IMG/VR virus record: IMGVR_UViG_3300037258_001219 | Span: 1 to 22,856 of that record | DNA from: a virus | Length of the DNA stretch: 22,856 nucleotides | Reading direction: 5' to 3' (one strand) | In this document: one piece after another, positions 2,257 through 22,856 of the stretch | Numbering within the stretch: the first letter of the stretch is position 1 | Layout: each line of letters begins with the position of its first letter | Notes under the pieces: model-generated | What the model saw: the letters and a program-made list of their open reading frames with translations, nothing else | Databases searched by the model: none | Told to the model about the DNA's origin: nothing | Made by a program: the position numbers and the translations under genes

Positions 2257-3541
2257 GCTGATCTGGTCGCTGTCGCGTGAACAGGCGCAGCGCATAAAAT
2301 ACGATTGGACATACCGGGCGCGCGACGAGCAGGCGCCGCCGCGCGGCGATTGGCGGATCTGGCTGCTGCTGGCCGGCCGCGGCTTTGGCAAGACCCGCAC
2401 CGGCGCCGAACTGGTGCGGGCGCGGGTCGAAGCGCATACGGCGCGGCGGATCGCGCTGGTCGCGCCGACCGCGGCGGATGCCCGCGATGTGATGGTCGAG
2501 GGCGAGAGCGGGCTGTTGGCGATCGCGCCGCCCGGGAACCGGCCGCTTTACGAGCCGTCGAAGCGGCGGCTGACCTGGCCCGACGGCGCCGTCGCGACGA
2601 CCTACAGCGCCGACGAGCCGGAGCGGCTCCGTGGCCCGCAGCACGATTTCGCCTGGTGCGATGAACTCGCGGCGTGGCGCTACCCGGCAGCCTGGGACAT
2701 GCTGATGTTCGGGCTGCGGCTCGGCGACGATCCGCGCGTCGTCGTCACGACGACGCCGCGGCCGACGCCGCTGATCCGCACCTTGCTGAGCGACCCGCAG
2801 GTAGTCGTGACGCGTGGCCGCACCGCCGCGAACCGCGCCCACCTGGCGCCGGCGTTTCTCGACCAGATCGTGCGGCGCTACGAGGGCACCCGGCTCGGCC
2901 GGCAGGAGCTCGACGCCGAGATCCTCGACGACATGCCGGGCGCCTTGTGGCAGCGCGGCATCATCGAGGCGGCGCGGGTCGGCAGCGCGCCCGAACTGGC
3001 GCGGGTCGTCGTCGCGATCGACCCCGCGGCCGGGTCGGGCGAGCATTCCGACGAGACCGGCATCGTCGTCGCCGGCCGTGACGCGGCTGGGCACGGCTAT
3101 GTGCTGGCGGACGCCTCGGGTCGCTACGCGCCGGCCGAATGGGCGCGCGTCGCGATTGCCGCCTACCGCGCCCACCGGGCCGACCGCATCGTCGCCGAGG
3201 TCAACAACGGCGGCGAGATGGTTGAGGCGACGCTGCGCGCGATCGATCCCGACGTGCCGTTCGGCGCGGTGCGGGCGGCCCGCGGCAAGGTCGCGCGGGC
3301 GGAGCCGATCGCTGCGCTCTACGAGCAAGGCCGGGTGCATCATCTCGGCGCATTGCCGCAGCTCGAAGACCAGATGTGCTCGTTCACGAGCGGTTTCGAC
3401 CGGCATGTCGCGGGGCATTCGCCGGACCGGGTCGACGCGCTCGTTTGGGCGCTCAACGAATTGCTGGTCGAGCGCTCTGTCGGCCAGGGCATTTTCGAGG
3501 CTTACCGCCGTCTGGCGGCAAAGGAGAACGAGGCTCCATGA
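2201..3541 (+). CDS. Terminase large subunit (packaging ATPase and nuclease)
   Basis: Motor that cuts concatemeric DNA and pumps it into the prohead through the portal. From the GTG at 2201 the protein has 446 aa: Walker A GRGFGKT (59-65), Walker B FAWCDE (150-155), coupling motif TTTPRPT (183-189). A C-terminal RNase-H-like nuclease follows, starting at VVVAIDPAAGSG (D274) and ending with D409/D412 in SPDRVDALVWALNE. It is the type found in alphaproteobacterial GTAs (their gene 2). The open frame extends to 2093, but that extension lies inside the small-subunit gene and is only Arg-rich. GTG 2201 has a purine-rich Shine-Dalgarno (GAGGGAGAGG, ending about 2194) and starts at the expected N-terminus. 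All catalytic motifs look intact. The stop overlaps the next start (ATGA). Confidence 0.96.
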   Translation: MNSLRASSLALLPQPLRNELIWSLSREQAQRIKYDWTYRARDEQAPPRGDWRIWLLLAGRGFGKTRTGAELVRARVEAHTARRIALVAPTAADARDVMVEGESGLLAIAPPGNRPLYEPSKRRLTWPDGAVATTYSADEPERLRGPQHDFAWCDELAAWRYPAAWDMLMFGLRLGDDPRVVVTTTPRPTPLIRTLLSDPQVVVTRGRTAANRAHLAPAFLDQIVRRYEGTRLGRQELDAEILDDMPGALWQRGIIEAARVGSAPELARVVVAIDPAAGSGEHSDETGIVVAGRDAAGHGYVLADASGRYAPAEWARVAIAAYRAHRADRIVAEVNNGGEMVEATLRAIDPDVPFGAVRAARGKVARAEPIAALYEQGRVHHLGALPQLEDQMCSFTSGFDRHVAGHSPDRVDALVWALNELLVERSVGQGIFEAYRRLAAKENEAP

Positions 3542-3981
3542 CCCTTCTCGTCAAAGACGCCAATACCACAATCCAGTCGCTGTCGACCGGGCTCGACGGT
3601 AGCGGCAACCTGGTGCCGGTGCACGCGCCGGCCACCACCAACTCGCAGGGCGTCGCCTCGCCGGTCGGGCCGCAGAACCCGCTGCCGGTCATCAACGCCG
3701 CCGGCAGCCCCGCAATCGACGGCAGCGGTACGGTAGCGGCCGGCGGCAGCGCGCAGATGCTGTTCGGCGGCATCGCGCCGGTGAACGGCTTTTTGATGCA
3801 GAACAACTCGTCGTCGGCACTGTGGATCTGCGATGTCGGGACGGCCTCGGCCGGCGGCGCCAGCATCCAAGTCGCCGCCAACGGCGGCATCTTTTGGACT
3901 TCGGCGGGTTACAAGCCGGCCGGCGCGGTCAGCCTGTTCGGCGCGACCACCGGCCAGGCCTTCGCCGCGCGGCGCTGGTAA
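3538..3981 (+). CDS. Small beta-rich accessory protein, unrecognised
   Basis: I do not recognise this 147-aa protein. It is Gly/Ala/Ser/Asn-rich with short predicted beta strands. The second half (MLFGGIAPVNGFLMQNNSSS, then ALWICDVGTASAGG and AVSLFGATTGQAF) reads like a compact beta-sandwich, as in capsid-decoration or fibre-associated proteins. It has no signal peptide, unlike its apparent counterpart at 8003-8377, with which it shares the theme 'N-x-[ST/G]-x3-W/L-I/N, then Gly/Ala-rich strands'. ATG 3538 overlaps the terminase stop and AAGGAG lies 11 nt upstream. It precedes a large spike-like gene, so a chaperone, linker or decoration role for that protein is possible. Function is inference only; coding status is well supported by spacing and codon use. 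Confidence 0.68.
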   Translation: MTLLVKDANTTIQSLSTGLDGSGNLVPVHAPATTNSQGVASPVGPQNPLPVINAAGSPAIDGSGTVAAGGSAQMLFGGIAPVNGFLMQNNSSSALWICDVGTASAGGASIQVAANGGIFWTSAGYKPAGAVSLFGATTGQAFAARRW

Positions 3982-3994
3982 AGGGATGCCGCCG

Positions 3995-6568
3995 ATGAGA
4001 TCGCTCGACCGCACGATCGGCGCGACCGCGCTGGTTGCCTGCGGGCTCGCGGCACTCAGCGCCTGGGCACAATCGCCGGGCAATTTCTCCACCCTGTCGA
4101 CGACCGGGACCGCGACGTTGAGTGGCGATGTGCTGGCCTGCTCCGGGCGGCCGTGGGTCGACGTCAAGTGCCCGAGCATGGCCGGCGGCGCGGTCGGTGA
4201 CGGCAGCCACGACGACACCGCGGCGATCCAGGCGACAATCGCCGCCGCCGTCACCAACGACTGGCCGGTGCACATCCCGGCCGGCACCTACAAGGTCACC
4301 TCAAAGCTGACGATCGATTATGCCGGCCGGGCGTCGAGCGGCTTCCGGCTGATCTCCGAGGGCGCGACGATCGACGGCCGCGGCATCGCGGCCGGCCCGG
4401 TGCTGCAGGTGAAATGTTCCGGCGGCACTCCATCCAGCCCCGCCAACTGCTTCTACTTCAAGGCGGAAGGCACGCTGTTTGTCGATGCCGATACGTCGGC
4501 CTACGCGGTGGTCATCGGCAATGCCGATTTCTCGGATGCGCACAACTCGCTGAAGCTCGACCATCTGGTCGTCAACAATGCCTCGACCGTGGCCGGTGCC
4601 GGCGGGCTGCAACTCAACTATGTGCTCGATTCCGACATCTTTACGATCGCCGATGCGGCGGGCGGTGCCGCCGGCATCGCTCTCGAGCAAACGCAGTTCT
4701 CGCGCATCTCGGGCGCCGGCTCGGCGTCGGGTACCGGCGGCACGGCGCTGCTGCTGGAACAGGGCTTCAACAACTCCAATTCGATCTTCGCCTTCGACAT
4801 GGAAGTCTCCCCGACCTGCCTCGGCATCACCGCGCCGCATGACGGCATGAACACGTTCATCTCGCCCTATTTCGCCTGCGCGACGGCGGTCAACGCGACG
4901 GCCAGCACGCACAACCTGCTGATCAACCCGACCTACGCCGGCAACGTCGTCAACCGCGGCCCGCAATCGACGGGGATCGAAACCGTGGGCTCGGGCAACT
5001 GGGCGAGCTGGCAGTTTCCGGCGGCGGCGACCTATACCGCCGCGCCGATCGACGACCACACCGTGCTGTCGTCGTTCAATGCGCCTGGCGCCGCGCTCGC
5101 GGTGACGCTGCCGCAGCCGAGCGCGGTTGCGCCCGGCTGGTGGATGGGGTTCGCCACCGACAACGGCAAGGGGCTGACTGTCGCCGCGCCGTCCGGGCTG
5201 ATCCTGTCGGGCGGTAAGGCGATATCGTCGGTGACGCTGGGTCCCGGCAACTACGAGTATCTGCAGCTCGCTTCCGATGGCAGCAACTATCGCATCGTCA
5301 CGGCGACCCGCGGCACGCTGGCGGCCAACGGCATGGAAAGCCGCGACTGGCCGGGCAGCTGGCTCTACCCCTCAACGTCCGGCTATGCGGCCGCGCTCGG
5401 CGACAACGGCAACGTCGTGTCGAGCTCCAACACGGCCGCCGGCCTGACCGTGACGCTGCCGTCGACGACCGGTCTGCCGACCGGCTGGTCGATGGGGTTC
5501 GCCACCGACAACGGCAAGGGGCTGAGCGTGCAGGTCAACGGTACCGCCGGCGGCCATATCCTCTACCCGCTCGCCAACCCGACACTGCAGACAGGGCTGA
5601 CGTTGGCCGGCAATTCCTACGAGTTCGTCACCTTGCAATACGACGGCGCCGACAACTTCCGCGTCGAGCAGGTGACGCCGGCGACGGCGCAGCAACTCGG
5701 CCTCGCCGGTACGGGCGGGCTGTCACGCTGGCTGTATCCGGCGGCAACCGCCTATAGCGCCGGCCAGGCCGACAACGGCACGGCGATCTCGGCGTTCAAC
5801 AGCCCGCTCGCCTACCTGACCGTAACGCTGCCGTCGATCACCGCACTCGAACCTGGCTGGACAATCGCGATCGCCAACGACAACAACAAACTCGCGGCCG
5901 TGCAGGTCAACGCGACGAGCGGCGGCCACATCCTCTACCCCGGCAGCGGCGGCACCGTCACGTCGCTGTCGCTGGCGAGCGGCAATTACGAAATGGCGAT
6001 CCTGCAGTTCGACGGCACCAACTTCCGCGTCTTGCAGTTGACCCCGGCGAGTGCGGCCGCGGCCGGCCTGAGCGGCGGGACCTGCACCGCCAAATGGATT
6101 TTCCCGGCGGTCAGCAGCTACGCCGCCGGCGTCACCGATTGCGGCACCACGATCTCCAACTTCAACTCGCCGATTTCCAGCCTCACCGTGACATTGCCGT
6201 CGACCACGGCGATCGCCGCCGGCTGGCGGATGGGCTTCGTCTCCGACAACAACAAGACCCTGACGGTGCAGGTCAACGGCACCAGCGGCGGGCTGATCCT
6301 GATCCCCGGCACACGCGGCGGCCAAAGCGCGATGACGCTCTACGCCGGCAATTACGAGCTCCTGCAGCTCGAATTCGACGGCTCGAACTTCCGCGTCATG
6401 GCGGCGACGCCGGCCACCGCCTCGGCCAACGGCATGCTGCCGGCGACCGGCACGCCGGCGTCGAGCTCGGCCGCTTGCCAAACCGGGCAGATCGAGCTCG
6501 ACAGCAACTACCTCTACGCCTGCACCGCGCCCAACACCTGGAAGCGCGCAGCCTGGAGTACGTTCTGA
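3995..6568 (+). CDS. Spike-like protein: signal peptide, pectate-lyase-type beta-helix, four C-terminal repeats
   Basis: An 857-aa protein likely to bind or degrade a surface polysaccharide. Residues 1-26 look like a Sec signal peptide (hydrophobic ATALVACGLAALSAWAQ). Residues about 55-115 carry the N-terminal signature of the Pectate_lyase_3 / GH28-related superfamily (GAVGDGSHDDTAAIQATIAAA, then VHIPAGTYKV), the usual start of phage tail-spike beta-helices. The helix runs to about 330. Four diverged repeats of about 115-123 aa follow (about 335-452, 453-575, 576-696, 697-813), each with W-x-[YF]-P-A, LTVTLPS, GW-x-MGF, DNNK and NYE-x-LQ-x-DG-x-NFRV. The end (CQTGQIELDSNYLYACTAPN) is typical of phage fibre C-termini. 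ATG 3995 is preferred because AAGGG lies 9 nt before it; ATG 3986 sits right on the Shine-Dalgarno. Catalytic residues cannot be assigned by eye. Confidence 0.82.
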   Translation: MRSLDRTIGATALVACGLAALSAWAQSPGNFSTLSTTGTATLSGDVLACSGRPWVDVKCPSMAGGAVGDGSHDDTAAIQATIAAAVTNDWPVHIPAGTYKVTSKLTIDYAGRASSGFRLISEGATIDGRGIAAGPVLQVKCSGGTPSSPANCFYFKAEGTLFVDADTSAYAVVIGNADFSDAHNSLKLDHLVVNNASTVAGAGGLQLNYVLDSDIFTIADAAGGAAGIALEQTQFSRISGAGSASGTGGTALLLEQGFNNSNSIFAFDMEVSPTCLGITAPHDGMNTFISPYFACATAVNATASTHNLLINPTYAGNVVNRGPQSTGIETVGSGNWASWQFPAAATYTAAPIDDHTVLSSFNAPGAALAVTLPQPSAVAPGWWMGFATDNGKGLTVAAPSGLILSGGKAISSVTLGPGNYEYLQLASDGSNYRIVTATRGTLAANGMESRDWPGSWLYPSTSGYAAALGDNGNVVSSSNTAAGLTVTLPSTTGLPTGWSMGFATDNGKGLSVQVNGTAGGHILYPLANPTLQTGLTLAGNSYEFVTLQYDGADNFRVEQVTPATAQQLGLAGTGGLSRWLYPAATAYSAGQADNGTAISAFNSPLAYLTVTLPSITALEPGWTIAIANDNNKLAAVQVNATSGGHILYPGSGGTVTSLSLASGNYEMAILQFDGTNFRVLQLTPASAAAAGLSGGTCTAKWIFPAVSSYAAGVTDCGTTISNFNSPISSLTVTLPSTTAIAAGWRMGFVSDNNKTLTVQVNGTSGGLILIPGTRGGQSAMTLYAGNYELLQLEFDGSNFRVMAATPATASANGMLPATGTPASSSAACQTGQIELDSNYLYACTAPNTWKRAAWSTF
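5143..5177 (+). repeat. Exact 35-bp direct repeat, copy 1
   Basis: Identical to 5491-5525, 348 bp apart, and in the same reading frame. It encodes the MGFATDNGKGL block of repeat unit 1 of the spike-like protein. The flanking repeat sequence is much more diverged, so this block has been kept identical by selection, gene conversion or a recent exchange. Confidence 0.9.
5491..5525 (+). repeat. Exact 35-bp direct repeat, copy 2
   Basis: Second copy of the 35-bp block at 5143-5177, in repeat unit 2 of the spike-like protein. Units 3 and 4 have related but changed versions (for example GW-x-IAIANDNNK and MGFVSDNNK). Confidence 0.9.
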
Positions 6569-7896
6569 TGCCTCCCCAAGGTGGTACGCGCACGCCGTTC
6601 AACGCTTCCTACACCTGGGGCCAGCAAGGCCTGGAAGCACAGTTCCGCGGCGTCTTTCAGCCCGACCAGGGGATCTTCTCGCCCGGCTACCCGCTGGCGC
6701 CGCTCGAACCGGAGCGGCTGCGCGTGTGGGACTACCCGGTCGGCGTCAATACGATCTACACGCCGCGCGCCTACGAGACGATCTCGTTCGCCGAGTTGCG
6801 GGCGCTCGCCGAGCATCACGACATCACGCGGCTGGCGATCGAGACCCGCAAGGACCAGGTCGAAAAGCTCGATTGGACGATCAAGTCGCGCACGCTGCAG
6901 CGGTCCGACGCCGACACGAGGGCACGCGCCGCGCGGGTTGCCGAATTCTGGCGGCGACCGGATGGCGAGCGCCCGTTCGCCAGCTGGCTGCGCGAGTTGC
7001 TCGAAGACCTGCTGGTGCTCGACGCGCCGGTACTCGAGATGCGCCGCAACCGGGGCGGACGGCTGATCGCGCTCGACATCGTCGACGGCGCGACGATCAA
7101 GGTGCTGATTGACGAAACCGGTCGGCGCCCGATGCCGCCGGCTCCGGCCTACGAGCAGGTCATCCACGGCCGGCCCTGGAAGCTGCTGACCAGCGACCAG
7201 CTGCTCTACGTGCCGCGCAACCCGCGGCCACATAAGGCCTACGGCTTCGGACCGGTCGAGCAGATCGTCATGACCGTCAACATCGGGCTGCGGCGGCAGG
7301 CGATGCAGCTGCGGCACTTTACCGACGGTAACGTGCCGCCGGGGCTGCTCAATGCCCCCGATGGCTGGAGCGCTGAGCAGATCCGACAGTTCCAGGAATG
7401 GTTCGACAGCGTGCTGGCCGGCAACGCCGGCGGGCGGGCCCGCCTGGTGTGGGGGCCGAGCGGCACCAGGTACCAGCCGTTCAAGGAGGCGCCCTACAAG
7501 GACGAGTTCGACGAGTGGCTGGCGCGCATCATCTGCTATGCGTTCTCGCTGCCGGCGACGGCCTTCACCCGCCAGGTCAACCGCGCCACCGCCGAGACCA
7601 CCCAGGAAGCCGCGCTGGCCGAGGGGCTGGCGCCGCTGATGGGGTGGATCAAGCGTCTCGCCGACCACGTGATCCAGGATCGGATGGGGCAGGCGGACCT
7701 CGAATTCGCCTGGATCGACGCGCGCTCGGTCGACCCCGCCGAACAGGCGAAGCTGCTCGACCTTTACGTGCGTGACGGCATCTACACGGTCAACGAGGCG
7801 CGCGACATTCTCGGTCTTGATCCGGTCGCCGGCGGCGACCAGGCGATGATTTATGGCGCCAGCGGCGCGACGCCGCTGCCGATGAGCCGCGAATAG
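6568..7896 (+). CDS. Portal protein
   Basis: Dodecameric ring at one capsid vertex through which DNA enters and to which the tail joins. The 442-aa protein has features of the HK97-type portal family (Phage_portal). There is an N-terminal arm, then RALAEHHDITRLAIETRKDQV, a wing region (LLVLDAPVLEMRRNRGGR) and the LIALDIVDGATIKVL strand. The clip/stem region includes DQLLYVPRNPRP, YGFGPVEQIVMTVN, NVPPGLLNAPDGWS and the channel-helix block FSLPATAFTRQVNRATAE. The C-terminus has the usual VNEARDILGLDPVAGGD motif. ATG 6568 overlaps the upstream stop (TGATG), so it is translationally coupled to the spike-like gene. That is odd, because in GTAs the portal gene directly follows terminase; here about 3 kb of accessory genes sits between them. 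Length is normal for the family. Confidence 0.95.
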   Translation: MPPQGGTRTPFNASYTWGQQGLEAQFRGVFQPDQGIFSPGYPLAPLEPERLRVWDYPVGVNTIYTPRAYETISFAELRALAEHHDITRLAIETRKDQVEKLDWTIKSRTLQRSDADTRARAARVAEFWRRPDGERPFASWLRELLEDLLVLDAPVLEMRRNRGGRLIALDIVDGATIKVLIDETGRRPMPPAPAYEQVIHGRPWKLLTSDQLLYVPRNPRPHKAYGFGPVEQIVMTVNIGLRRQAMQLRHFTDGNVPPGLLNAPDGWSAEQIRQFQEWFDSVLAGNAGGRARLVWGPSGTRYQPFKEAPYKDEFDEWLARIICYAFSLPATAFTRQVNRATAETTQEAALAEGLAPLMGWIKRLADHVIQDRMGQADLEFAWIDARSVDPAEQAKLLDLYVRDGIYTVNEARDILGLDPVAGGDQAMIYGASGATPLPMSRE

Positions 7897-8002: not shown

Positions 8003-8377
8003 ATGCGCAGTTTCTCTGCCGCGCTCGCGTTCGCGCTGGTGCTTGGGACGAACCCCGTGGCGCGGGCCGCCGACATTGTGGCACCGAGCAGCCTGCCGAT
8101 CACCCAGACGGTGGTGACACTCGCGGCCGGCGTCGATGCCATTCTCGGCACCGCCACCAGTCGCCGATACCTCTGCCTGATGAACATCGGCACCGGCCTC
8201 GTCAACCTCGGCTTCGACGCCCCGGCCGCGGCAAGTGCCGGGTGGGCGCTCGAGGGCGCCTCGGACGCCGGCCATCAAGGCGGCGCGATGTGCTGGGAAA
8301 ACAGCATCGTTGCCGCCGGCGTCGTGCATGCGATCAGCGCGGCCGGATCGACCGTCGTTGTGCTGGAGGGGCGATGA
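8003..8377 (+). CDS. Small exported beta-rich protein
   Basis: A 124-aa protein I do not recognise. Residues 1-22 are a convincing Sec signal peptide (MRSFSAALAFALVLGTNPVARA, then AD), with a short basic n-region, a hydrophobic core and an A-R-A cleavage site. The mature part is beta-rich with RYLCLMNIGTGLVNLGF and a second cysteine in GGAMCWENSIVAAG; C57-type and C101-type cysteines could form a disulphide after export. It pairs with the following large fibre-like gene (ATGA overlap at the end), just as the small protein at 3538 pairs with the spike-like gene. It may be a cognate assembly factor or decoration protein. The exported character is seen in the sequence; the role is inference. Confidence 0.7.
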   Translation: MRSFSAALAFALVLGTNPVARAADIVAPSSLPITQTVVTLAAGVDAILGTATSRRYLCLMNIGTGLVNLGFDAPAAASAGWALEGASDAGHQGGAMCWENSIVAAGVVHAISAAGSTVVVLEGR

Positions 8378-10425
8378 TGACGCCGAGCATCGGATTGAGC
8401 AGGGCGGCGATCGTGCACATGTGGCAGTCCGCCAGCCGGTCACCGGGAGTTAGTGTCGCGCGGATCGGGTTGCGGCGGGCGGTCGCGGTCGGCGTGCTGG
8501 CGGCGGCGCCGCTGCTGCTGCAGCCGGCCTATGCGGGGCCGACACCCAGCACCGAGATGTTCGTCAACGCCGCGAACGCGGCGCTGCCGACAGCGCGGAA
8601 AAACCTCGGTCTCGAAGACGCGACCGGCAGCTACTACACGCTCGGCTCGGGCCTCTTTCCGCGCTACGCGACGGCGACCGCGACGACCGCGACGACGACC
8701 AATGGCAGCCCGACGATCACGGTCACCTCGGCCAGCAACATCAGCCTCGGCGACCAGGTCACCGCCGCGTTCGCGCCGAGCCTGACCTATGTCGCCAACA
8801 TCAGCGGCACGACCGTCACGTTGTCGGCCAACGCGACCGCGACCAATGCGTCGCCGGCCGCCGTCACGTTCGGCGCCAACCGCTTCAGTGCCGGCGCGAC
8901 CGTGCTGACCAACGCATTCGGCGCCGAGCAAGGCTATTTCGGCCAGGCGGCGCAGGGCCGCTCGACCTGGCTGGCGCAGTTCTTCCCCGGGCTCGACACG
9001 TTCGGCAGCGAGGCCCTGGTGGCGCTCGGCCCCGACGGCGGCGACACGATCATCGGCGGCGTGCGCAACAACCTGGCGGCGGCGACGATGGCGTTCCCGA
9101 CCGGCGTCACCGGCGTCGGCGTCTTGGAGAGCGGCGCGGCCGGCAACGCGGTGTTCGGCATCGGCGCGCAGGTCTGGCAGTACGATGCCGGGGTCGCGAC
9201 CAACGAGCTCAACACGAATAATTATTTCGGCGCGCCGTCGTCGGCGCTGCCGCCCGACCGCTCGATCGGCACGGCGCAGACCCTGCCGATTGTGCTGACA
9301 TTGGCGCCGCAGGGCAGCTACGCCTCGGCGATCGATTTGCAGCTCGGCGAGGGCGGCGCGGCGCCGCAGCCGGCCCTGACCGGCATCTACATGAACCCCG
9401 GCGCGGTTTCGACAACCGGCCTCTACATCGACAGCAGCGGGACGACCGGACCGACGACCGACGCGGTGTTGAGCGAGCCCGGCGCCGGCATCAACCTGCA
9501 GCTCCACACGACCGACACGATGGTCGCGACGAATTCGGTCATCACGGCGCAGGACCATACCGGCGCCTTCTGGTTTTACGTCAAGCAGAACGGCGACCTC
9601 GGCGGCGGCCAATTGCTCGCCGGCTACCAGTCGACCTATTCGCTGGCGTTGAACGGCGGCTCGACCTACACCGCGCTGAACGCCGCCTCGGGCGCGACCG
9701 GCATCCTGGTCAGCCCGAACAACAACGGCAGCAACGCGTCGCTGCGGCTGAGCAACACGTCGACGCAGGCGATGATCGCCGCGACCGACCCGACCGGCAT
9801 CGCGAGCTACATCCTGCAGCTCGGCGGCTCGGAAACCCATTTGCAGGTCGGCGGCACCGACGCATTGGCCTTGACCGCGTCCGGCATCACGTTGTCCGAC
9901 CCGGGCAACAGCAATGCCACGGCGCTCAGCACCGCGAGCGGCAACACGACGCTCGGCGAGAGCGGCAAGAGCGTGACGCTGGTCGCGCCGAAGATCGGCT
10001 CGGCCAAGGTGCCGGCGACGAACGCGTCGCAAAAGAACGTCTCGGCGCCGTCCGGCACGACCTCGACAACCGGCGTCATGATGGGGCTCGCGGGCGCGAT
10101 CACGCCGGCGACGACCGGCAACATCTTGATCATAATTTCCGGCGATATCGCCAGCGACACCTCGGGCGACGGCGCCAAAGTGCAGCTGCGCTATGGCACC
10201 GGCTCGGCGCCGACGAATGCCGCGGCGCTGACCGGCACGACCTGCGGCGGCCTGGTGCAGGACAGCGACGCAAGCGGTGACGGCGCCAAGGTGCCGTTCA
10301 GCGTGCAATGCATCGCCACCGACCTCTCGACCGGCACCGCGTACTGGCTCGACGTAGAGCTGGCGGCGGTCACCGGCGGCACCGCCGCGATCGCCGATAT
10401 CAGCCTATCGGCGCACGAGTTGTGA
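8374..10425 (+). CDS. Fibre-like protein with signal-type N-terminus and jelly-roll-like C-terminal domain
   Basis: A 683-aa Gly/Ala/Thr/Ser-rich protein, probably a receptor-binding fibre or other trimeric surface protein. From ATG 8374, residues about 33-54 form a hydrophobic segment with an AYA cleavage site (VAVGVLAAAPLLLQPAYA), so it looks exported. The n-region is long, and an internal ATG at 8419 would give a more ordinary signal peptide. Next come a fibre-like block (AALPTARKNLGLEDATG), low-complexity Thr/Ala strands and a long stretch of short beta repeats (SSG, NNNGSNASLRLSN, TDALALTASGITLSD). The last about 120 residues (GVMMGLAGAITPATTGNILI to ADISLSAHEL) look like a separate globular beta domain, of the sort seen at fibre tips in alphaproteobacterial phages. 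The start overlaps the previous stop. Exact function and catalytic activity are unknown. Confidence 0.75.
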   Translation: MMTPSIGLSRAAIVHMWQSASRSPGVSVARIGLRRAVAVGVLAAAPLLLQPAYAGPTPSTEMFVNAANAALPTARKNLGLEDATGSYYTLGSGLFPRYATATATTATTTNGSPTITVTSASNISLGDQVTAAFAPSLTYVANISGTTVTLSANATATNASPAAVTFGANRFSAGATVLTNAFGAEQGYFGQAAQGRSTWLAQFFPGLDTFGSEALVALGPDGGDTIIGGVRNNLAAATMAFPTGVTGVGVLESGAAGNAVFGIGAQVWQYDAGVATNELNTNNYFGAPSSALPPDRSIGTAQTLPIVLTLAPQGSYASAIDLQLGEGGAAPQPALTGIYMNPGAVSTTGLYIDSSGTTGPTTDAVLSEPGAGINLQLHTTDTMVATNSVITAQDHTGAFWFYVKQNGDLGGGQLLAGYQSTYSLALNGGSTYTALNAASGATGILVSPNNNGSNASLRLSNTSTQAMIAATDPTGIASYILQLGGSETHLQVGGTDALALTASGITLSDPGNSNATALSTASGNTTLGESGKSVTLVAPKIGSAKVPATNASQKNVSAPSGTTSTTGVMMGLAGAITPATTGNILIIISGDIASDTSGDGAKVQLRYGTGSAPTNAAALTGTTCGGLVQDSDASGDGAKVPFSVQCIATDLSTGTAYWLDVELAAVTGGTAAIADISLSAHEL

Positions 10426-20125: not shown

Positions 20126-21169
20126 ATGCCCGGAACCATCACCCCGATCGGCGTCGGCACGGCTGCGTTCCACACGCGGTTAACGACCGCCGGCAGCGCG
20201 CTGGACACGCTGGCCGCGCCCGGCGACAGCAACCCGCCGATCATCCTCGAGCCGCCGTCGGCGTTGTCGGGCGGCGACCTCGAAGTGTGGGTCATCGCCT
20301 CGGGGGGCGCCGAATGGGGCGGCTGCCAGGTCTGGATCTCGACCGACAATGCGACCTATGCGCTGGCCGGCACGATCTACCGCGGCGGCCGTCAGGGCAC
20401 GCTGACCGTCGCGCTGCCGAGCCATGCCGGTCCCGACACCGGCGACACGCTGTCGGTCGACCTGACCGAGAGCCAGGGCCAGCTGCTGTCGGGCACGACG
20501 GCCGATGCCGACAATTTCGTCACGCTGTGTTATTGCGACGGCGAGCTCGTCAGCTACCAGACCGCGACCCTCACGTCGGCCTACCATTACGACCTGACGT
20601 ACTTGCGGCGGGGTGTTTATGGTACGCCGATCGGCGCCCATTCCAGCGGTAGCAGTTTCGCGCGCTTCGGGCCGAACGATCCGTCGCTGTTCCGATATCG
20701 CTATCCCGCCAGCTTCATCGGCCAGACGGTCTACGTCAAATTGCCGGCCTTCAACAATTTCGGCCAGGCCTTGCAGGACCTGTCGGGACTGACGCCGACC
20801 AGCTACGCGCTGACCGGTGACGGGGCGGTGGCGCCGCCGGCCTATGTCTCGGGCTCCTGGGCTGGCAGTCCGGGGGCGAGCCAAATCGTCGAGCGCTACA
20901 TCTTTGCCGCTTCGGTCACCCTTCCGGCCGGCCTCGCCGGCAGCTACGGCAGCGCCGGCACCGCTGCGACCGCCGCGGCGAGCTTCGCGATCGCCAAAAA
21001 CGGCACGAATGTCGGCACGATGGGGTTCGCCGCCGGCGCGGCTACCGCCACCTTCGCGATGGCGACGGCGACCACCTTGGCCGGCGGCGACGTGCTGACA
21101 ATCGTCGCGCCCGCGACGCCCGACGCGACCCTCGCCAACCTCGCCTGGACGCTCGGCGGCAGCCAATGA
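20126..21169 (+). CDS. Tail tip/host specificity protein, C-terminal part
   Basis: The 347-aa continuation of the tip protein. Residues about 35-90 (NPPIILEPPSALSGGDLEVW and GAEWGGCQVWISTDNATYAL) are the C-terminal half pattern of GTA g15-like proteins. It then has YHYDLTYLRRGVYGTPIGAH, FRYRYPASFIGQTVYVKLPA and FNNFGQALQDLSGLTPTSYA, which is like the fibronectin-like end of tip proteins. From about 250 on it is a Thr/Ala/Gly-rich beta domain that may be the host-specific end. It begins 1 nt after the previous stop, in a different frame (TAAGATG). This is either a genuine two-subunit tip or a broken gene. The clean start, the absence of stops and normal codon use favour a functional split. Confidence 0.83.
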   Translation: MPGTITPIGVGTAAFHTRLTTAGSALDTLAAPGDSNPPIILEPPSALSGGDLEVWVIASGGAEWGGCQVWISTDNATYALAGTIYRGGRQGTLTVALPSHAGPDTGDTLSVDLTESQGQLLSGTTADADNFVTLCYCDGELVSYQTATLTSAYHYDLTYLRRGVYGTPIGAHSSGSSFARFGPNDPSLFRYRYPASFIGQTVYVKLPAFNNFGQALQDLSGLTPTSYALTGDGAVAPPAYVSGSWAGSPGASQIVERYIFAASVTLPAGLAGSYGSAGTAATAAASFAIAKNGTNVGTMGFAAGAATATFAMATATTLAGGDVLTIVAPATPDATLANLAWTLGGSQ

Positions 21170-21543
21170 CGGACGCATTACACGACCCGCCGCCGCACCG
21201 GCCGGGCCGAGATGCTGCATGGCACAGCGCGATCCACCCGCATTTCACCCCCGACATCAATCTCGGCCATTTGGTGCAGGCGGTCGTCGTCGTCACCACG
21301 GTCGGCGGCGGCATCCTGGCCGGCTATCTCAGCTTGCGTGACGACCTCGACCGGCAGCGCGCCGAGTTTCGCGTCGCGATCGCCGAGCACGCCGAGCGCC
21401 TGACCGTCGACGAGCGCGAACTCGATGAGCGGCGCAGCGAAGAACAGCAATTCCAGACCGAGATGCGCACTTCGCTGCAGCAGGTCATGCAGGCGATCGC
21501 CGACCTGCGCACCGAGCTCGTCCAGAAACAGGACCGGAAATAG
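21166..21543 (+). CDS. Single-pass membrane protein with coiled coil (lysis-associated, spanin-like or holin-like)
   Basis: A 125-aa protein. An N-terminal hydrophilic part (about 1-33, His/Pro-rich) is followed by one membrane helix (VQAVVVVTTVGGGILAGYLSL, about 36-57). A long charged helix follows (DDLDRQRAEFRVAIAEHAER to TELVQKQDRK) with heptad-like spacing, hence a coiled coil. That layout resembles an inner-membrane spanin, or a membrane anchor for the lysis genes; it is also compatible with a small holin-type accessory protein. It overlaps the tip protein stop (ATGA) and is followed directly by the muramidase gene, so it belongs to the lysis cassette. The exact role is inference and the sequence has no family motif I recognise. 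Confidence 0.7.
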   Translation: MTDALHDPPPHRPGRDAAWHSAIHPHFTPDINLGHLVQAVVVVTTVGGGILAGYLSLRDDLDRQRAEFRVAIAEHAERLTVDERELDERRSEEQQFQTEMRTSLQQVMQAIADLRTELVQKQDRK

Positions 21544-21545
21544 CG

Positions 21546-22244
21546 ATGACCACCTGCCCGCTTCCCGACATCGTATTCGACGGCGTCATCGACGTGTCGC
21601 ACCACAATGGCGCGATCGACTGGCCGGCAGTGGCCGACGCCGGCATTGTCCTCGCCTTTGTCAAGGCGACGCAGGGCGGCGGTTTCGTCGATCCGCTGTT
21701 CGCCGCCAATCGCAGCGCCGCGACCCGCGCCGGCGTGCTGGTCGTCCCCTACCATTTTGTCGACCGCGACGATCCCGCCGACCAGGCGGCGCATTTTTGC
21801 GACGTGGCCGGCCTCGCCGCCGGTGGCGCGGCGATGCTCGATTGGGAGAGCACGGCGCCGGCCGAGGCCGTCGCGCTGCTCGGCGAGGCGCTCGCCGATA
21901 GCGGCGGGCGGGCGCCGGTCGCCTATTACGGCTTCGCGCAGCTGACCCGGCCCGACGCGGCGCTGTCGCGCTGGCCGCTGATGCTGCCGGAATACCCGCG
22001 CGGCGCAGCGGCGGGCTGCTACCGCACGCTGGTCAGCCGCCCGCCACGGCTGCCGCCCGGCCGCGCCGGCGGCTGGGGCGGCGTTGAGCGCCCCTACGAT
22101 TTTCACCAGTACACGCCGGCCGGTCGGGTCGCCGGCATCGCCACCCCGGTCGACCGCTCGGTTTGGGTCGGTAGCTGCGGCGACCTGAAGGCCTGGTATG
22201 CGACCGGCGAGCTGCCGCGGCCGAACGCGCCGCCCGGCATCTGA
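21546..22244 (+). CDS. GH25 muramidase endolysin
   Basis: Cleaves the N-acetylmuramic/N-acetylglucosamine bond of peptidoglycan to lyse the host. The 232-aa single-domain protein shows the GH25 pattern: GVIDVSHHNGAIDW (D16), FVKATQGGG, VVPYHFVDRDDPADQAAHF, and the catalytic AMLDWES with D99 and E101; YDFHQYTPAGRVAG and PVDRSVWVG near the end complete it. No signal peptide, so it needs a holin; the gene after the next terminator codes a holin-like protein. The start is 2 nt after the preceding stop. All catalytic residues appear intact. Confidence 0.95.
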   Translation: MTTCPLPDIVFDGVIDVSHHNGAIDWPAVADAGIVLAFVKATQGGGFVDPLFAANRSAATRAGVLVVPYHFVDRDDPADQAAHFCDVAGLAAGGAAMLDWESTAPAEAVALLGEALADSGGRAPVAYYGFAQLTRPDAALSRWPLMLPEYPRGAAAGCYRTLVSRPPRLPPGRAGGWGGVERPYDFHQYTPAGRVAGIATPVDRSVWVGSCGDLKAWYATGELPRPNAPPGI

Positions 22245-22271: not shown

Positions 22272-22293
22272 AGCCGCCGCGAGGCGGCTTTTT
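22272..22293 (+). terminator. Intrinsic terminator after the endolysin gene
   Basis: AGCCGCC (22272-22278) and GGCGGCT (22283-22289) form a perfect 7-bp stem closed by a GNRA tetraloop GCGA, followed by TTTTT (22289-22293). A strong Rho-independent terminator in the 72-nt gap between the muramidase gene and the holin/lipoprotein gene. It would end the main late transcript or attenuate the last gene. Confidence 0.88.
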
Positions 22294-22316
22294 CGCTGTC
22301 TGAAAGGGATGTGCCA

Positions 22317-22856
22317 ATGCAAGTCCTCGCCTATCTGCTCGCCCGCTTCAGCGAGCCGTCGAGCTATGCCGGGCTCGGTGCCGTGCTGGCGCTGCTCGGC
22401 TTGAACCTGCCCGCGGGCACAGTCAGCCAGATCGTGCAGCTGCTGGCCGGCGCCTGCGGCCTGCTTGCGCTTCTGCTGAAAGAGCGCGGGCTGATCCAAG
22501 CAATCGTGCTGGTCTTTGCGGTATTGCCAGCGCTGACCGGCTGCGCCGGTGCGCCGGCGGTGCTCGGCGGCCTCGGCGCCGCCGGTTCGATCTATACCGC
22601 GGTCGACAAGGCGACCGAGGCGGTCAGCCCGGTCATCGCAACCGGCTGCCAGGACTACCAGAAGGGCAAGGCGGCGGCCGATGCGACGGTCGCGACCGGC
22701 ATCGTGCCGCAAAGCGTCGCCGGCAAGGTGACCGCGATCGAGCAATACGGCGACGCCGCCTGCGCCAACCCGCCGTCCGGCGATCCGCTCTCGACCGCGA
22801 TCTGGCTCGGCGGCCTCGCCGGCCAGATCACGACGCTGGCCAGCGCGGCGAAGTAG
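22317..22856 (+). CDS. Holin-like membrane protein with a lipobox (possible holin-lipoprotein fusion)
   Basis: A 179-aa protein with two parts. Residues 1-57 read like a small phage holin: LARFSEPSSYAGLGAVLALL, a turn LNLPAGT, then a second helix IVQLLAGACGLLALLL and KERG. Right after this comes a third hydrophobic stretch (IQAIVLVFAVLPALTGC, about 60-76) ending in a perfect lipobox L73-T74-G75-C76. Following it is a hydrophilic mature part of about 100 residues with two cysteines and a Gly/Ala-rich end. It may be a true fusion of holin and outer-membrane lipoprotein (spanin-like), or two products with an internal GTG (22507) start. ATG 22317 follows AAAGGG at about 7-8 nt; upstream in-frame residues overlap the terminator. 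Confidence 0.78.
   Translation: MQVLAYLLARFSEPSSYAGLGAVLALLGLNLPAGTVSQIVQLLAGACGLLALLLKERGLIQAIVLVFAVLPALTGCAGAPAVLGGLGAAGSIYTAVDKATEAVSPVIATGCQDYQKGKAAADATVATGIVPQSVAGKVTAIEQYGDAACANPPSGDPLSTAIWLGGLAGQITTLASAAK

Follow-up and report, generated by a model that had tools for sequence, protein, structure and literature searches.

A phage gene that joins a holin-like domain to a lipobox-bearing exported domain: a putative lysis polyprotein

The last gene of the DNA analysed here (the window, an IMG/VR virus record of 22,856 bases) encodes a single chain in which a two-helix holin-like domain is followed by a third hydrophobic segment, a lipobox and an exported-type domain. We regard it as probable, at about 60%, that this gene specifies a lysis polyprotein whose processing by the host enzymes Lgt and Lsp would yield a holin of three helices plus a lipoprotein that contains two cysteines besides the lipobox one. 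The sequence itself, its conservation, the fusion, the split homologues and the lysis cassette are direct observations and are presented first.

The fused gene and its neighbourhood

The fused ORF (22317-22856, plus strand) runs from an ATG at 22317 to a TAG at 22854-22856 and specifies 179 residues without an internal stop codon. An AAGGGA-type ribosome site is located 5' of position 22317 (duplex energy -7.6). The gene and its upstream neighbours are laid out as follows.

21166..21543, plus strand: one-TM coiled-coil-like protein lacking Cys, conserved next to most fusions and showing a charge bias
21546..22244, plus strand: GH25 endolysin (Pfam Glyco_hydro_25, E 8.4e-21; PHROG endolysin), by eye lacking an N-terminal signal
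22276..22294, plus strand: terminator-like hairpin GCCGC-GAG-GCGGC with T-run, 28 nt before the start codon and directly 5' of the ribosome site
22317..22490, plus strand: holin-like N-domain (residues 1-58), with a short amphipathic helix, two predicted TM helices and a putatively cytoplasmic KERG tail, of which KER 55-57 would be the n-region of an internal signal peptide
22491..22541, plus strand: third hydrophobic segment (residues 59-75), read as the h- and c-region of an internal lipoprotein signal peptide
22533..22544, plus strand: lipobox LTGC with acceptor cysteine C76 (codon 22542-22544), the Cys being conserved in fusions and separate lipoproteins
22545..22853, plus strand: exported-type C-domain (residues 77-179), a predicted three-helix bundle with conserved cysteines C111 and C149

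The original prediction had described holin-like helices and a hydrophobic segment ending in LTGC in one and the same frame, and this description is borne out by the intact 179-residue ORF and by a set of 12 fused homologues. Hydropathy analysis called three TM-like segments in the fusion protein (about residues 15-36, 36-56 and 56-79) and none after residue 83. The AlphaFold2 model (mean pLDDT 78, pTM 0.44) contains helices at residues 2-11, 14-26, 33-57 and 59-74 and a three-helix domain at residues 92-177; these two parts are joined by a linker (residues 75-87) with a pLDDT below 50, and this low-confidence linker argues in favor of a chain made of two separable products.

The window contains a late phage block with terminase, prohead protease and tail genes, at the end of which the lysis genes are located. 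By eye the endolysin appears to lack a signal, so that it should depend on a holin; beside its gene, no gene other than the fusion was noticed to encode several TM-like segments. The fusion product resembles a holin in being a small predicted inner-membrane protein with TM helices, encoded in a lysis cassette with endolysin neighbours. A GH25 or PF11860 muramidase gene is present upstream of the fusion in several loci, the PF11860 enzyme taking the place of GH25 in L010 and L011. Among 149 proteins encoded next to 41 stand-alone N-domains, where one protein may match several families, there are Phage_lysozyme, GH25, Hydrolase_2, M15 peptidases, GH108 and others, and three match an Rz-like spanin family. 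The presence of muramidases or endolysins upstream of the fusions, and of peptidoglycan hydrolases and Rz-like spanins next to stand-alone N-domains, argues for a lysis polyprotein. Two observations on neighbouring genes count against it: no endolysin is encoded between the coiled-coil gene and the fusion in L007, L012 and L014 (the same holds for L024, described below), and one neighbour of a stand-alone N-domain matches GTA_holin_3TM (PF11351), which makes it another holin candidate at that locus.

The terminator-like hairpin, of a GCCGCC-loop-GGCGGC type, with its T-run is located 21-30 nt ahead of the start codon in 10 of the 11 fusions of the window clade, as well as in L024 and the unfused loci L118 and L026. 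In L044 the stem is present and the T-run is too short, and no such hairpin was found at this position in 12 other stand-alone N-domain loci tested. It possibly reduces the read-through that reaches the holin gene.

The window record stops at the stop codon of the fusion gene, so that its own downstream neighbours are out of view. Several virus records end at this codon or a few bases past it (the window at 22856, L003 at 5468 and L012 at 5453), which looks like provirus trimming at the gene end and not like a genome end. Elsewhere in the window, positions 3992-6565 encode a long protein with internally similar segments and a signal-peptide-like N-terminus that matches PF12708 (E 4e-9) and PHROG tail proteins; this pectate-lyase/tail-spike match is flanked by the terminase gene on one side and the 6094-7896 ORF on the other, where a tail-spike gene would not usually be expected. 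Two further ORFs with signal-peptide-like starts (8003-8377 and the one in frame 8377-10425), lying after the 6094-7896 ORF and before the prohead protease gene, matched nothing in Pfam or PHROG at E 0.01.

Conservation of the lipobox and occurrence of separate lipoproteins

Twelve distinct fused proteins carry a lipobox: that of the window and those of L002, L003, L004, L005, L007, L010, L011, L012, L014, L044 and L027. The proteins of L006 and L009, identical to that of L005, were left out of the counts, as were duplicate copies of contigs already in the set, and the fusions of L105 and L109, which lack a lipobox, stand outside the 12. In all 12 proteins the third segment is hydrophobic and is closed by L-x-[GA]-C, with L at -3, G or A at -1 and C at +1. 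The other positions ahead of the cysteine vary among the 11 window-clade fusions and are mostly occupied by hydrophobic letters (entropy about 1.3-2.4 bits). The strict lipobox [LVI][ASTVI][GAS]C, a consensus given in PMC6139136, is matched by 10 of the 12 fusions; the LGAC of L010 and L044 deviates at -2, which counts against processing, although LGGC is found in the separate lipoproteins of L124 and L125. The possibility that C76 is not conserved, which would have been fatal to the original prediction, does not hold, since the cysteine is present in 12 of 12 fusions. On the basis of this conservation the lipobox is genuine; lipidation itself is predicted. In addition, the lipobox precedes C-domains of at least four sequence types, and the constancy of L-x-[GA]-C in front of such different domains argues for a site at which the chain would be cut.

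The residues around the hydrophobic segment are consistent with a signal peptide. A K or R is located ahead of the hydrophobic stretch in 12 of 12 fusions, and K55, R57 and G58 are invariant in all 10 rows of an alignment, so that the positive n-region is constant. According to the positive-inside rule, K55 and R57 between segments 2 and 3 would place this loop in the cytoplasm and C76 in the periplasm. The mature part of every one of the 12 fusions contains exactly two further cysteines, and position +2 is never Asp. By the Lol rule of E. coli, a residue other than Asp at +2 points to the outer membrane. The lipoprotein part is therefore, going by this position, probably sorted to the outer membrane. 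Together, the constant positive n-region, the absence of Asp at +2 and the two further cysteines argue for the release of a lipoprotein from the fusion.

Does the frame itself reflect a chance hydrophobic helix with a coincidental cysteine, or an assembly artefact joining two genes? High G+C content makes long open frames cheap. However, the fusion is preserved in 12 distinct sequences from independent contigs and genomes. Among type-1 fusions (15 pairs, 6 sequences) the N-domain gave a pairwise dN/dS, or pN/pS where saturated, of 0.08-0.38 and the C-domain one of 0.13-0.81, with relaxed values in the third segment (residues 59-75). Such values below 1 for either domain indicate that both halves are translated in this frame. 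Chance or artefact, which we consider scarcely credible, is refuted by these two results.

The original prediction had proposed a search for split homologues, and these were found in the form of five separate lipoproteins and of stand-alone N-domains. The window-type C-domain is encoded by a gene of its own in L011, L116, L118, L124 and L125, each time with its own signal peptide, and the cysteine of all five aligns with C76, which argues that the fused domain too would be a lipoprotein once released. In L118 the GH25 endolysin gene is followed by the stand-alone N-domain, then by one lipoprotein and finally by the window-type lipoprotein; this locus has the same parts as the window fusion, unfused. 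The N-domain adjoins a different lipoprotein in L026 and L028, and L011 contains a fusion with another C-domain, directly behind which the window-type lipoprotein is encoded as its own gene. In L024, residues 1-75 are kept and a stop is present at the codon of the Cys position; the DNA behind this stop reads as another gene and not as a broken C-domain. The L024 product is thus exactly the predicted Lsp-released holin part, with residue 75 as its last, and this coincidence of its end with the predicted cleavage site further argues for cutting ahead of C76.

An alternative is that the chain stays uncut and works as a holin of three helices to which a periplasmic domain remains attached, this domain sensing or restraining triggering, in a layout like that of class III holins such as T4 T. 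In its favor, a C-terminal periplasmic holin domain is known in T4-like phages (PMC9636201), and the fusions of L105 and L109 have an exported domain that lacks a lipobox, a fact that also counts against the polyprotein. An uncut chain would however leave unexplained why L-x-[GA]-C is invariant in an otherwise variable helix and why the same domain occurs elsewhere as a plain lipoprotein, and we consider it unlikely.

A second small lipoprotein (..DYExERDxLRxC) was noticed behind the fusion or the separate lipoprotein in L002 (5629-5853), L004 (about 5723-5860), L010 (5626-5919), L044 (3464-3850), L124 and L125. It corresponds to phrog_26778 in L002 and L044, and the L044 copy weakly matches an Rz-like spanin PHROG (E 0.009).

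Translation start, origin of the fusions and proposed processing

According to the original prediction, an internal start near 22507 could yield both a holin and a lipoprotein. The nearest in-frame codon is GTG at 22506 (codon 64). With two starts, the whole holin fusion would be made alongside a lipoprotein initiated near codons 60-64, and candidate codons do exist: GTG64 is present in the window, L002, L004, L005 and L007, L003 has a TTG60 with a good ribosome site, and L027 a GTG64 with a fair one. Across the 11 of 12 lipobox fusions analysed for this feature (the set without L044), however, the candidates are scattered and their ribosome sites mostly weak; L010 has no ATG, GTG or TTG in the searched stretch, L011 only TTG68, which at 8 residues ahead of the Cys is too near to it, and the window's product, VLVFAVLPALTGC, would be without a charged n-region. 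The internal start is thus not conserved, GTG64 being present in only some members, and this part of the prediction is not upheld. Translation as one chain is the simpler reading, and two starts appear improbable.

The N-domain belongs to a large family with the motif [AD]R[FLM]xE[PA]S[ST][YW]A. A first viral scan gave 2 close relatives, a second 5 more loci and a third further ones; a wide viral scan for the N-domain gave 239 confirmed stretches. Order- and class-level genome searches matched 6 of 43 and 8 of 385 genomes, respectively, most of them with the N-domain alone; L009 comes from a named alphaproteobacterial MAG. The best 80 of the 239 confirmed stretches and the other loci collected, that is the best-scoring part only, contain 84 distinct N-domain proteins, of which 70 are of at most 85 aa (stand-alone), 14 of at least 140 aa (fused) and none of a length in between. 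With 14 of 84 in this best-scoring part, fused proteins are a minority, which agrees with the initial judgement that the arrangement is unusual.

In a tree of the N-domain (83 rows, 62 columns; bootstrap not yet settled) the 11 fusions of the window clade group with L024 and L032 (99/99), L032 being a long branch whose placement is not trusted. L027 pairs with the unfused L118 (100/99), and L105 and L109 are placed elsewhere. The latter two proteins (2956-3744 and 2944-3753, respectively) consist of the holin-like domain and an exported domain whose signal is closed by an AxA-like motif and contains no Cys, indicating that not all fusions of this holin-like domain would be lipidated; their C-domain is related to the lipobox-bearing one of L027. 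Well-supported branches force at least three changes between the fused and the unfused state. Going by this tree, the holin-like domain has likely been fused to exported domains repeatedly.

For the steps that would follow translation, namely membrane insertion, lipidation, cutting and the two functions, we infer this course. The N-domain would insert as an N-in/C-in helical hairpin, similar to a class II holin, after which the KERG tail would serve as n-region and residues 59-75 as the internal signal peptide by which the C-domain would be exported through the inner membrane. C76 would then be lipidated by the Lgt of the host, and signal peptidase II (Lsp) would cut ahead of it. This would give, in equal amounts, a three-helix holin (residues 1-75, the signal peptide being kept as third helix) and a lipoprotein of 104 residues. 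The holin would release the signal-less GH25 endolysin, and the lipoprotein would most likely act on the outer envelope in lysis, perhaps as an o-spanin. Taken as a whole, the scheme in which host signal peptidase II splits a phage lysis polyprotein into holin and outer-membrane lipoprotein at a ratio of 1:1, the segment being first a signal peptide and then the third helix of the holin, and in which lysis timing would depend on lipoprotein maturation, is a tentative one, to which we give somewhat less than even odds.

If cut as predicted, the protein would be a natural phage polyprotein of an inner-membrane pore former and a lipoprotein that is processed by a host enzyme, and for this enzyme, Lsp, an inhibitor is at hand (globomycin). 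Two lysis steps that are normally encoded by separate genes would then be linked at a fixed ratio, and the gene would provide a natural case of Lsp handling an internal signal peptide. The analysis also brings to notice a widespread holin-like domain that has no family name.

Relation to known holins and spanins

Neither the N-domain nor the C-domain is named by Pfam or PHROGs: the window protein matched neither a Pfam family (E up to 1) nor a holin PHROG, and this lack of a named holin or spanin family counts against the polyprotein. The nearest profile was phrog_8494 (unknown function; E 0.001), obtained with the stand-alone N-domain of L035. Searches of the PDB by sequence and by fold gave nothing significant, and single-sequence searches of phages, plasmids and genome contigs gave no usable match, the low-complexity filter of the phage search being one that may mask Ala/Leu-rich queries. 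A holin-lipoprotein fusion was found in none of the titles and abstracts that searches of the open-access literature listed.

Within the polyprotein reading, the C-domain could specifically be an o-spanin that pairs with an i-spanin to fuse both membranes. It is a predicted lysis-cassette lipoprotein whose periplasmic cysteines number two beyond C76 in each of the 12 fusions, and the absence of Asp at +2 fits this role. The distribution of Cys, two in the lipoprotein against zero in its coiled-coil neighbour, is the most frequent one among spanins (Kongari et al. 2018, PMC6139136), and overlapping Rz/Rz1-like pairs were seen by eye behind stand-alone N-domains in L029 (about 1501-2019), L031 and L033 (1139-1469). 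However, the coiled-coil neighbour, present as a one-TM candidate partner, has 1-4 K/R, mainly Arg, on the flank facing its coiled coil, against 0-1 on the opposite flank, and in all 8 sequences tested the Arg count was higher on the coiled-coil side. This bias suggests that its coiled coil is cytoplasmic, contrary to the N-in topology of an i-spanin. Moreover, the second two-Cys lipoprotein of L002, L004, L010 and L044 could be the o-spanin instead. The o-spanin assignment is accordingly possible but doubtful. Of the earlier label "spanin-type", the lipoprotein traits stand (two further Cys, no Asp at +2, both in 12 of 12), but a clear i-spanin partner was not found and no profile names the C-domain.

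Class II holins, of which phi21 S is the type, have two TM helices in an N-in/C-in topology. The fusion is like them in having a small two-helix protein encoded beside an endolysin gene, and differs in that it has no detectable kinship to a named holin family and in the added third hydrophobic segment and lipoprotein. GTA_holin_3TM (PF11351) is a three-helix holin of phage-like elements, as is predicted for residues 1-75 of the fusion, but the window protein did not match its profile. FbcH of Bradyrhizobium is a respiratory cytochrome b/c1 polyprotein split at an internal signal peptide, where it is cut by signal peptidase I. It resembles the fusion as a bacterial membrane polyprotein divided in this manner, but belongs to respiration and not to a phage. 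To our knowledge, the class III holin T of T4 has no lipobox. T shares with the fusion a C-terminal periplasmic domain on a holin, but it has one TM helix (PMC9636201), whereas the fusion, with three hydrophobic segments and a conserved lipobox Cys, does not fit the class III plan of one TM helix, N-in, and a large periplasmic C-domain. The o-spanins of two-component systems (Rz1, PseT.2) are also small lysis-cassette lipoproteins, with periplasmic Cys that are often two (PMC6139136), but the predicted lipoprotein of the fusion follows a holin-like domain and is predicted to form a three-helix bundle, and no clear i-spanin partner was found for it. Unimolecular spanins such as T1 gp11 combine a lipobox and a TM helix in one chain, as the fusion does, but in these the N-terminal lipobox comes first, the TM helix last and there is no periplasmic Cys (PMC6139136), whereas the fusion has the reverse order, with TM helices first and the lipobox at residue 76, and two Cys.
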